Source of the DNA: Neoarius graeffei
Lineage: Eukaryota; Chordata; Actinopteri; Siluriformes; Ariidae
NCBI RefSeq assembly: GCF_027579695.1
Contig: NC_083582.1
Coordinates: forward strand, 32,666,464-32,730,463
Length of the DNA stretch: 64,000 nt
Direction of reading: 5' to 3'
The notes under the pieces are model-generated. The model was not told the origin of the DNA. It searched no databases and worked only from the letters and a program-made list of their open reading frames with translations. The position numbers and the translations under genes were made by a program. Below are positions 4,766-62,496 of this stretch, piece by piece; the stretch's first letter is position 1; the number at the start of each line of letters is the position of its first letter.

Positions 4766-4972
4766 ATGCCGGAGAGTTGTATGGCATATAAATGCCACAA
4801 CAGGAGAGGTCAGAAATCGGGAAGAAAGTTTCATAGGCTGCCACGGGACCCTGACAGGCGTGCAAAGTGGATTGCTGCTATCAGCCGGGCCGATGCAAAC
4901 AACAACAACAAGGCATGGGAACCGACTGGAAAGAACGATCACTGGTGCCTGTGCAGTGACCATTTCATCTCA
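4766..4972 (+). pseudogene. THAP zinc-finger exon of a transposon (THAP 1)
   Basis: The ATG at 4766 opens a THAP domain, a C2CH zinc-binding DNA-recognition module common in fish transposases. The motifs run MPESCMAYKCHNRRG (C-x4-C), GRKFHRLPRDPDRRAKWI (FxxxP and conserved Trp), a second Trp-Pro-like WEPTGKNDHW, and LCSDHF (C-x2-H). The frame meets a GT at about 4973, a plausible 5' splice site, so this is a first exon. The rest of the transposase is missing. All four zinc ligands are intact, so a DNA-binding peptide could still be encoded if the element were transcribed. Confidence 0.8.
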
Positions 4973-5154
4973 GGTTCGTCATGTATTTATTTCAGTATAT
5001 CCATGTGGTTATTTGCAACATAAGTTTATGACTTGCTCTAATAAAAAATTCCGGGAAGTGGGAACCTGAGAAAAGGGTTGGGGCGGGGGGTGGATTGGGT
5101 CTTTAGTGGTGTGACAATCAATGTAGTCTCTAGATATAAAATTATTTTACACTT

Positions 5155-5439
5155 TTAGGGGTCACATGAATTTCTGTAAAGATAACTGTCCAGAGATTTA
5201 TAAGCACACAGTGCTTCACCACTGAACAGCGAGGGAAAGTTAATGAGGTAATTATACACGTCTGGGTATTCCACCTCTGGCAGTTCAATATCCACTGACA
5301 CGGTCATGAAAACTACATCCGTTAAGCCATAAGGGTCACTAATCCGTAGGTCGTTTATTTTAGACATATATCTAATTATCTGTTCATTAGAAAAATGAGC
5401 CGTGTAGTCCGTCGGTTGAAATTTATCCATTTTGTACAT
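5155..5439 (-). pseudogene. N-terminal remnant resembling transposon-encoded YqaJ/SWIM-type protein
   Basis: A 94-codon minus-strand frame pointing into the element. It shows MDKFQPTDY, RYMSKINDLRISDPYGL, PEVEYPDVYNYLI and CAYKSLDSY. These recall the N-terminal region of the accessory nuclease-like proteins encoded next to THAP transposases in some fish elements; this is my recollection and was not searched. The frame stops at 5155 without any nuclease core, as expected for a truncated end. Confidence 0.5.
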
Positions 5440-5730
5440 GAGTGCAGCAGTATTCAGCGGTGTTTTTTACCGACAAAATGGCGGCTGTGTACTTTCCGGT
5501 CACGTGACTGCAAGATCTCTATAAGGGATAACACACAGAGTCATGTGATCAGTTCCACGTATAACCACTCCCCCCCGACCTTCATATGAATTTGCATGGC
5601 TGTTTTTTTTTTTTTTTTTAAAAGGTGCAGCTTTTACAGCCAAAACACTAATTTTCAGCTAACAAAGTTTTTTTTTTTAAAACCAAGTCTATATTTTGAT
5701 TCATACCGATACTACAGGAGTTTGAATTAA

Positions 5731-6446
5731 AGCTAGACAGCCTCCCGATTTCATAAAATCAGTGAAATTTAGTTCCTTCTGAAATGTGGTCATTGTGAGA
5801 TGTTTATTTCTGTAATATCGCAAAAAACCCAGGCCATTCTGTGGCTGGGAAGTTATTTAATTTGAGCGGATTCCCGAGCAAATAATGTGCATGAAATCGC
5901 TCGGTTTGCGCAGTCAAGCAGACAGAGGAAGTCCGTGTGTCTGTGCATGCGCATGTTTACCTTTGACCGTATACTGACAGTTCCATCATTCTGTCGCTAA
6001 ACGAACAGCTGATCACACCGAGGTGCTCGCTGAACGCTGATGTTTATTAGTTTGGTCCTGTGCTTCCTTTCCTTCGTATATAACGTCTTTTCTTCTCGCT
6101 TTCCGGTACTGTAGACGGTCTTCGCCGTTTCTTTTGCACACACACACGTCCTCTATTTTTCTCTTCTGTTTCAAATTTCCATCCAACAATGCTTTGCGCA
6201 AAATGGGAAAAGCTCACCATGTGATATATGGCGTAGTTTTTTAAAATGGGTCCTGTCGAAGCAGACAGGAATGGCAGAGAATTTAAAGGCACATGCCCCT
6301 AAATTCATTAATTATTAAAAACAAAAAAAATTTGAGGTATATGATTCAGGTTCAGCAGCTTTCAGTCCACTGAACAAAAACAGCTAGGTATCAAGGAAAG
6401 TTCTTTTTATGACCTACACTTGAAAAATCTGAAAGGCAGTCTACCT
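5731..6446. mobile_element. TTAA-flanked Kolobok-like MITE, family K1 copy 1
   Basis: TTAA lies on both sides (5727-5730 and 6447-6450). The ends are AGCTAGACAGCCT and the inverted AGGTAGACTGCCT. A second copy at 47764-49226 is alignable along its length apart from a nested insertion. TTAA duplication with AGG-type ends is typical of the Kolobok superfamily. Confidence 0.75.
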
Positions 6447-6556
6447 TTAAGTAATTTGAATTAAATAAAAGAGTCAGGTTTTAGGTCAAATGTGAAGCAT
6501 TTAATCTATGCTAGTTTCAAACCACCATGCTGGTACAGCTAGCTATACAAATATGA

Positions 6557-60258: not shown

Positions 60259-60271
60259 TGAAACTACGGGT

Positions 60272-60621
60272 AATGAATATAATTAACCCTGACCCCTGGG
60301 GTTAGGGTGAATCATCGCTCGTGGGATCACAATGGAAGAAGTCTTTCAAAAGATCACAAACGACGTATGTACAATTAGGCCATTATTAAAAAATGCTCTG
60401 TTTCCGGTCCACCGGCCGGGTGAGTGCTGTTTGTGCAGTTGAAAATTTTTTTTTAACGCAGGTTTTTCGACATTTTTTTCGGGTTCGTAAATCTAAAATC
60501 GAACTTGAAATTTACGCATTCCGTGCAGAATATAGAATCGAATCAGCTCTGCGCATGCGCCACAAAAAAATGGCAGCCACCATGAAGGAAGGAGATCCGG
60601 AGTTTTCAAACATTTGCTTAA
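60272..60621. other. Presumed intron 1, no recognised feature
   Basis: Nothing recognised. Confidence 0.35.
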
Positions 60622-61478
60622 AGGAACAGTCCACCGTACTTCCATAATGAAATATGCTCTTATCTGAATTGAGACGAGCTGCTCCGTACCTCTCCGAGCT
60701 TTGCGTGACCTCCCAGTCAGTCAGACGTGCTGTCACTCCTGTTAGCAATGTAGCTAGGCTCAGTATGGCCAATGGTATTTTTTGGGGCTGTAGTTAGATG
60801 CGACCAAACTCTTCCGCGTTTTTCCTGTTTACATAGGTTTATATGACCAGTGACATGAAACAAGTTCAGTTACACAAATTGAAACGTAGCGATTTTCTAT
60901 GCTATGGAAAGTCCGCACTATAATGACAGGCGTACTAACACCTTCTGCGCGCTTCGACAGCGCATTGATACCTTCACTCCTGTTTTCCCCCTCTCCCCCG
61001 CCCCCCTGACTAGACTGTGTTCCAAGGAGTGCAGGCTACTCGTCTTGGTGGTCACTTTGGTTGTATTGACAGAAGTTGGGGGGGGCGGGGGAGAGAAAAA
61101 AAAAAAACAGGAGTGAAGGTATCAATGCGCTGCCGAAGCGCGCAGAAGGTGTTAGTACGCCTGTCATTATAGTGCGGACTTTCCATAGCATAGAAAATCG
61201 CTACGTTTCAATTTGTGTAACTGAACTTGTTTCATATCACTGGTCATATAAACCTATGTAAACAGGAAAAACGTGGAAGAGTTTGGTCGCATCTAACTAC
61301 AGCCCCAAAAAATACCATTGGCCATGCTGAGCCTAGCTACATTGCTAACAGGAGTGACAGCGCGTCTGACTGCGTCTGACTGACTGGGAGGTCGCACAAA
61401 GCTCGGAGAGGTACGGAGCAGCTCGTCTCAATTCAGATAAGAGCATATTTCATTATGGAAGTACGGTGGACTGTTCCT
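60622..61478. mobile_element. TTAA-flanked foldback MITE, family K6
   Basis: TTAA at 60618-60621 and 61479-61482. Ends AGGAACAGTCCACC and inverse. Symmetry continues for about 370 bp per arm to GCGCATTGATACCTTCACTC (60960) and its inverse (about 61108-61127), leaving a centre of about 130 bp. Confidence 0.92.
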
Positions 61479-61482
61479 TTAA

Positions 61483-62195
61483 GTTTAAAATCACAGAATG
61501 GTATTCTAGCGAACAACAAAATAGTAAAGATTCAGAAAAACAAATCATTCAGTGATCATTTTAATAGTGTAATTTCATCCGAACTACAGAAAGTCCGTGT
61601 GTCGGACCATCACAAACCGTTACTGGAAAATTCGTTTGATCTTGATCCAGCCGAGACGTTACAAACCGCTTTTGAGTTTTGTTATGCGAACTTCATTACC
61701 TACTTTGTTAATGACCCTGACAGATCTGTAGGAGAACCTAATAGATCTATTCAAAATGAGAACGGAACTGAACAAAAAAAAATGTGTTTACGGAACTAAT
61801 GCAGGTTGGCTGGACAGAATTAAAAACTGTGTCTGTAGCAAATAAAAAGAACGAATTACAAAAAAAAAAATCCCTACCTCCCTCCCTACTGAAAAATATT
61901 TTTGCTCACCCGGTGGACAGGAAACGGATTTTTTTTTTAAGGACGGCCTTATGGGTAATCAATGTTGCATTTCGAGCGTTATTTTGTAGATGAAACGCAG
62001 CACGCACACAAACCTTTCCAAACTGAACTTACAAATTCGATACCGGAAGTGCAAATTCAGAGTTTCGTATTTGTAAATCCGATATTCTTCGTTTGTACGC
62101 GACGTCAGAGCCAATTATGCGCGAGGCTTTGAACCGGAAGTGGGCCGTGTTGGAGGACATACACAAACTCACTCGGTGCACATTTACTATACAAG
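61483..62195. other. Probable transposon interior, unassigned
   Basis: A plus-strand frame reading through 61483-61799 (with VSDHHKPLLENSFDLDPAET, FEFCYANFITYF) is not recognised. The following sequence leads into the THAP exon at 62196. The left end of the host element is not found. Confidence 0.3.
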
Positions 62196-62496
62196 ATGCG
62201 TGCGAGAGGTTGTTACGCTCAAGAATTCCTTTCGTTTCGTCGCTACGCTACTCTTTGTGCTGTAACGGGATGCGGGCACAACTCTATTCGACACAAGGGG
62301 AGTTATAAGTTCTTAAGAGTTCCAGCAATTATAAATAACCAAGGAGAAAAAAACCAAACAAACAAGAGAGTTGTCCACGGAGCGTCGACGTCAACGTCTG
62401 TCCAACACAAACCGGGCTGATCTCAGCGATGACAAAACAAAAACCACACGAGTCTGTAGCGAACATTTTATCAACGGGAAGGCCTACGGACTAGGT
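62196..62496 (+). pseudogene. THAP zinc-finger exon, frameshifted (THAP 6)
   Basis: ATLCAVTGCGHNSIRHKG gives C-x4-C, and SYKFLRVPAIINNQGEKN follows. The frame then shifts near 62365-62372, and the other frame continues ELSTERRRQRLSNTNRADLS and RVCSEHFINGKAYG (C-x2-H). It resembles THAP 3 at 23262-23480 ([34 protein letters not shown]), so both may come from related transposases. A GTATTA at 62495 may be the old donor. Family K4 copy 3 sits directly against it. Confidence 0.72.

Follow-up and report, generated by a model that had tools for sequence, protein, structure and literature searches.

The 64,000-nucleotide stretch of the Neoarius graeffei genome analysed here (NCBI RefSeq assembly GCF_027579695.1, contig NC_083582.1, positions 32,666,464 to 32,730,463; hereafter the window, whose own numbering is used throughout) contains six pieces of THAP zinc-finger exons, at 4766, 16375, 23262, 42741, 50340 (minus strand) and 62196. 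With a probability of about 0.92, we regard these pieces as carried along in DNA transposons, which belong to three or more unrelated kinds, and as retained through internal deletions that kept the element ends. Five of the six were seen in short non-autonomous copies. In a parent element, THAP would be the first transposase exon, with a few hundred bases separating it from the left terminal repeat, and loss of the middle would leave both ends together with their adjoining first exons. The middle would have been lost by the classical route, incomplete repair of the excision gap, and the shortened copies would have been mobilised by transposases encoded elsewhere. THAP would thus be carried because of its closeness to an end required by the transposase, without selection on the exon itself. 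The evidence for the families consists of shared termini, many copies and mostly distinct flanks, to which the element at 22837-23796 (E2) adds a near-full-length relative and two break points.

A genome place matching just bases 11-854 of E2 is followed, 1.7 kb downstream, by a DDE_Tnp_4 match. Read as loci L061 and L062, it contains a near-full-length ISL2EU relative of E2 (C2:122534869-122542263), its matched ends lying about 7.4 kb apart. ISL2EU elements combine an AT target-site duplication (TSD), a THAP+HTH+DDE transposase and a YqaJ open reading frame (ORF) (excerpt of PMC4482050). The relative encodes THAP (1.3e-8), HTH_Tnp_4 (3.7e-9) and DDE_Tnp_4 (2.9e-40) on the plus strand, and YqaJ (4.8e-9), Viral_alk_exo (1.2e-6) and PHD on the minus strand; its frames are interrupted, with one TAA within the DDE match, and its first ten bases are unmatched. 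E2 corresponds to the left end of this relative up to base 854, joined through a 25-bp filler to 79 bp from the right end. From the layout of the relative and the matched ends it follows that E2 consists of joined left and right ends. E2 arose by internal deletion, and both break points were located. Three ISL2EU hallmarks were found for the E2 lineage: the AT TSD, THAP, HTH and DDE in the relative, and a second ORF with YqaJ. In the genome search for each family, the best 40 copies were scored and the first-look candidate counts are loose figures; for E2, at least 940 of 958 bases were covered in 31 of the 40 scored places (window included), with 2008 first-look candidates. AT flanked both ends in 18 of 21 copies, window included. 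The left end of the near-full-length relative also holds the inverted relic of the opposite gene seen in E2, as though a copy of the right end had been placed at the left.

We infer that the elements carrying the other five pieces were likewise shortened by internal deletion. E1 (4617-5520) is of the ISL2EU type, having the AT duplication, a THAP exon (E = 3.7e-13, profile positions 1-58 of 87) and the first exon of the YqaJ gene. The latter, a minus-strand exon, had no Pfam match alone; its frame matched the corresponding frame of L062 (50% over 36 amino acids, E 1e-9), which is the right-hand first exon there, and E1 therefore retains both gene starts. At least 868 of 902 bases were covered at 94-100% in 39 of 40 scored places (window included), with 2771 first-look candidates, and AT flanked both ends in 24 of the 30 copies read, again with the window included. 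In these 24 copies the preceding base was T in 18 and A in 6, and the following base was A in 17 and T in 7. Two pairs of E1 copies, L017/L018 and L015/L028, have like flanks. We also observed that another ISL2EU-like terminal repeat directly adjoins the ISL2EU elements, at a CTATAG-like end target, in 2 of 30 E1 copies and 5 of 20 E2 copies (L023, L024, L064, L065, L069, L071 and L074).

E3 (49396-50597) belongs to a different kind. Its TTAA target, terminal RR (AG) and THAP with C2CH ligands and an AVPTIF-like box are those of Kolobok elements. All 40 scored places (window included) matched at 96-100%, with 2919 first-look candidates, and, of 21 copies, 20 have TTAA immediately adjacent at each end, the remaining one having an extra A on the left. 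Another amplified TTAA family of about 1.68 kb, compared in three copies (L103-L105), has a complete THAP exon at the left and an open frame running from the right, the latter with no Pfam match. E1 with both gene starts, and this family with THAP at the left and a frame at the right, are what internal deletion predicts. The L103 copy (2200-3874) carries a THAP exon scoring 61.1 bits, and many of the genome THAP matches at 62-64 bits may belong to its family.

The 16375 piece lies in a further TTAA family. TTAA was present at the left end in all three copies read (window, L106 and L107); L106 has TTAA and matching terminal repeats at both ends, as in Kolobok elements, L107 is cut before its right end, and the right end of the window copy was not found. 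After the first two zinc ligands, the exon passes into a 41-bp minisatellite whose unit number varies from 3.0 in L106 (644-762) to 8.0 in the window and at least 17 in L107 (579-1633). A unit of 41 bp does not preserve the triplet phase, and the reading frame is lost in this family. Its genome search gave 2,128 first-look candidates, and all 40 scored places matched at 94-100% over a 271-base query that ends inside the first unit; the minisatellite itself was read at three loci. A THAP coding sequence has there become a mobile tandem repeat. The minisatellite also accounts for an open frame at 16404-16835 that matches DUF6932 weakly, and this frame was rejected as a gene.

The 42741 piece belongs to a high-copy element, pieces of which were found by blastn in 6 of the 103 loci compared. 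Four of these loci (L007, L008, L015 and L058) also match in protein and read MPHSC/SCAAFNC... with the first cysteine present, and we therefore accepted 42741 as a THAP remnant; the window copy has lost this cysteine. The L058 copy has its own TSD, CAGCAC. In this family the deletion falls inside THAP. The 62196 exon most resembles the 23262-lineage THAP, at 39% over 67 positions. By blastn, no copies of its region were found among the 103 loci, and a genome search with 61990-63740 returned chiefly a nested miniature inverted-repeat transposable element (MITE). This MITE, presumably pogo-like to judge by its termini, keeps an N-terminal CENP-B_N DNA-binding exon, a parallel to first-exon retention outside THAP. 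The coordinates of all these features are collected in Table 1.

Table 1 Features of the THAP-bearing elements in the window (TIR, terminal inverted repeat).
Feature	Position	Strand	Details
E1, ISL2EU-type non-autonomous element	4617..5520	+	904 bp; TIR AGAGATCTTGCA; TSD AT (4615-4616, 5521-5522)
E1 THAP exon 1	4766..4973	+	C2CH ligands kept, without AVPTIF part; then GT donor
E1 first exon of opposite (YqaJ-type) gene	5158..5466	-	open in consensus of copies
TTAA-bounded (Kolobok-type) element	16091..16913	+	TTAA 16087-16090 at the left end; common sequence with L106 stops at 16913
THAP start	16375..16434	+	first two ligands; Pfam E 0.087; local profile 18.5 bits
41-bp minisatellite	16435..16759	+	8.0 units; THAP core codons (FPREEKRQREW)
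E2, ISL2EU-type non-autonomous element	22837..23796	+	960 bp; TSD AT (22835-22836, 23797-23798); inserted in TTAA element
E2 inverted relic of opposite gene's first exon, in left end	23104..23158	+	to L062 inverted, 80% over 55 bases, 70% over 23 amino acids
E2 THAP exon 1	23262..23478	+	Pfam 2.9e-6, profile 1-58 of 87; then donor GTAAGT
E2 right end kept after internal deletion	23717..23796	+	95% to L062
High-copy element	42309..43200	+	TIR CATACATGTCAA; 6-bp TSD CATTAA (42303-42308, 43201-43206)
THAP start cut after ~27 codons	42741..42821	+	no Pfam match; same reading in L007, L008, L015, L058
E3, TTAA (Kolobok-type) non-autonomous element	49396..50597	-	TIR AGGNCCCATGGCATG; TTAA 49392-49395, 50598-50601
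E3 THAP exon, complete	50057..50344	-	Pfam 2.3e-11, profile 1-86 of 87; SVPSIP at AVPTIF position; donor GTAAGT
E6, frameshifted THAP exon, 23262 lineage	62196..62497	+	interrupted by TTAA-element insertion at 62498
TTAA element directly after 62196 exon	62502..63737	+	other copies near 21366-23893 and 44676-45269 (-)
Pogo-like MITE (presumed) within TTAA element	62777..63378	-	N-terminal CENP-B_N exon kept

All six pieces look like genuine THAP remnants in very different states. In this respect the first-pass annotation, which had read six THAP exons from the letters alone, was sound, although just three exceed the cut-off of the Pfam THAP model (PF05485, 23.9 bits): 4766 with 50.5 bits, 50340 with 44.7 and 23262 with 28.4. 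Below the cut-off lie 62335-62589 (20.3 bits), the first half of the 62196 exon (62133-62417) giving zero match, and 16375 (14.0 bits, E 0.087), while 42741 gave no Pfam THAP match. Of these three, the 62196 exon is frameshifted, 16375 is broken by the minisatellite and 42741 is truncated. We also built a small local THAP profile, whose training set included the 4766 exon, the 50340 exon and L061, the relative of 23262, so that its scores for these three are not independent. It gave 24.8 bits at 62335 and 18.5 bits at 16336, whereas no place in ten Markov-shuffled windows scored above 11.9; at 10.1 bits, 42729 is at background level. With its shuffled controls, the local profile thus backs five of the six pieces, three of them non-independently. 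Searches of PDB sequences confirmed the THAP likeness and nothing beyond it.

Part of what the same annotation said about the elements holds. They are DNA-transposon derivatives keeping a first exon near one end, and the borders it gave for 4618-5519, 22838-23795 and 49396-50597 are correct to within one base. Its description of six different contexts with different termini holds in part. The termini do differ, but the ISL2EU type is represented by two elements, 16375 and 50340 are both in TTAA elements, and 62196 is allied to the 23262 lineage. As to its statement that no catalytic core follows the exons, tblastn with the ISL2EU-type core of L061 found no match in the window at E 0.5, while a Kolobok core was not searched for.

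Within the 64 kb of the window, five THAP-like places score more than 18 bits, versus three in about 174 kb of flanks of other loci (Poisson P 0.006, a post hoc comparison with flanks that are not a random sample). The same flanks hold six further places at 12-18 bits, so weaker THAP remnants are common. Across the 2.34-Gb assembly (38 contigs), there were 38,411 loose first-look THAP candidates, or 1.05 per 64 kb; 150 were scored, and all of these exceeded the cut-off. DDE_Tnp_4, the core that partners THAP in ISL2EU, gave 1,485 candidates, which suggests that THAP exons outnumber these cores, the two figures being not strictly comparable. Four of the remnants in the window sit in non-autonomous families, for each of which the genome search gave 2008-2919 first-look candidates.

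Why the THAP end should recur was then weighed. The first-pass annotation had suggested a deletion process favouring 5' ends, by which the left end with THAP would outlast the right end more often. E2 fits this idea, with the left end kept to base 854 but just 79 bp of the right end. It is the only clearly lopsided element, however: E1 holds coding sequence from both ends, as L103 probably does too, and in the 42309-43200 family the cut went through THAP itself. Moreover, the sample is biased, because a THAP search can find only derivatives that kept the THAP end. We therefore consider such a preference unlikely.

The annotation's other suggestion was that the exons serve as binding-only peptides. 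THAP-only peptides would bind the terminal repeats and repress or help transposition, and selection among copies would keep the exon. A precedent is KP, an internally deleted P element of Drosophila that keeps the THAP start and whose repression has been studied experimentally. In favour of this idea, 25 of 29 E1, 14 of 21 E2 and 20 of 21 E3 copies have an exon with neither stop nor frameshift, and the exons of E3 and L103 reach the AVPTIF position in full. We aligned the copies, derived a majority sequence and reshuffled the observed changes among sites matched in base and CpG state. For E1, 29 copies were used (L018 was dropped because its flanks are those of L017, while L015 and L028, with near-identical flanks, were both kept), and for E2 and E3, 21 copies each. 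Missense plus nonsense changes numbered 31 against 30.4 expected in E1, 29 against 29.0 in E2 and 35 against 33.4 in E3. Changes common to at least two copies gave the same neutral picture, from few events (11, 7 and 7, respectively). The missense and silent counts are thus neutral in all three families, and the mark of selection at the protein level is absent, although the indel deficit described below leaves some doubt.

The defects themselves also speak against selected peptides. A stop at codon 56 is common to 3 of 29 E1 copies, and two frameshifts occur in 3 of 21 E2 copies each. Because the copies sharing a defect have different flanks, broken exons seem to have multiplied at separate loci, recurrent mutation being an alternative at E1 codon 56. 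In E1 and E2 the exon extends no further than profile position 58 of 87, short of the AVPTIF box, and the 16375 and 42741 families have spread without a usable exon, the former with its frame wrecked. Taken together, selected THAP-only peptides appear very improbable.

Several observations nevertheless weigh against the explanation by passive carriage and internal deletion. With short repeats masked, the pooled insertions and deletions (indels) within THAP were 1 of 24 versus 6.7 expected (P 0.004); unmasked, they were 0 of 17 in E1, 3 of 46 in E2 and 1 of 11 in E3. Substitutions in the E1 THAP were also fewer than expected (42 versus 59.3), those in E2 (40 versus 41.6) and E3 (47 versus 50.1) being near expectation. 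The opposite-strand exon of E1 showed no such deficit, with 7 of 17 indels and 87 substitutions versus 73.3 expected. In addition, the copies examined were the best-scoring ones rather than a random set, and no parent was found for E1, E3 or the 16375, 42741 and 62196 elements, the E1 search having listed best-scoring copies. Removal of indels but not of missense changes would be odd, and best-copy sampling and local composition are possible causes. Neutral decay, named beforehand as the outcome that would count against a retained function, therefore describes the substitutions, but the pooled indel deficit does not fit it.

Vertebrates do have THAP genes of their own, but an origin of the pieces from such genes or their pseudogenes can practically be dismissed. 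Five of the six lie within elements that are repeated and have terminal repeats or borders in common, and the sixth, 62196, is tied to transposons through its similarity to the E2 lineage. Two other matches lie elsewhere in the window. One, at 20936-21382 on the minus strand (RabGAP-TBC, 2.3e-8), is perhaps an exon or pseudogene of a host gene adjoining the TTAA element that bears E2; the other, at 39285-39617 on the minus strand, is a weak DEAD-helicase-like fragment (5.7e-5) under the Pfam cut-off.

On the explanation by internal deletion, a DNA-binding domain can spread in very many copies unselected, through the adjoining terminal repeat needed for transposition. Such exons may be annotated as THAP genes by gene predictors, and the families are raw material for domestication. 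As a long shot, the thousands of short elements from several superfamilies, with open THAP exons spared by indels, might, if translated, form a large, KP-like pool of THAP-only peptides that titrates or represses transposases across superfamilies. If the indel deficit held across all copies, the binding-peptide idea would become testable. Unlike KP, the present exons give no selection signal in their substitutions, and the superfamilies differ.

In a limited literature search these particular families were not found described, and the kind to which they belong is already known from ISL2EU elements, Kolobok MITEs and P-element MITEs. E1 and E2 resemble ISL2EU (PHIS superfamily; excerpts of PMC4482050 and PMC9179366) in the AT duplication and in the relative's THAP, HTH_Tnp_4 and DDE_Tnp_4 with a convergent YqaJ gene; they differ in being short and without cores. 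According to the same excerpt of PMC4482050, the ISL2EU target is A|AT|T and the termini are usually, not necessarily, GG, whereas the termini of E1 and E2 begin with AG and the E1 flanks are mostly T|AT|A. With Kolobok and T2-MITE elements of Xenopus there is agreement in the TTAA target, the terminal RR and a THAP with an AVPTIF-like box, but E3 and the 16375 family lack the core, and the T2 motif AGGRR is matched just as AGG (excerpt of PMC6004289). The 16375 minisatellite recalls Xmix and Xstir, amplified internal tandem arrays on a Xenopus TTAA MITE (same excerpt); the unit here differs in consisting of THAP core codons and in breaking the frame. Finally, internal deletion with the ends retained, proposed to proceed via gap repair, is the feature shared with internally deleted P elements and the P-MITEs of Anopheles (excerpt of PMC1562414).

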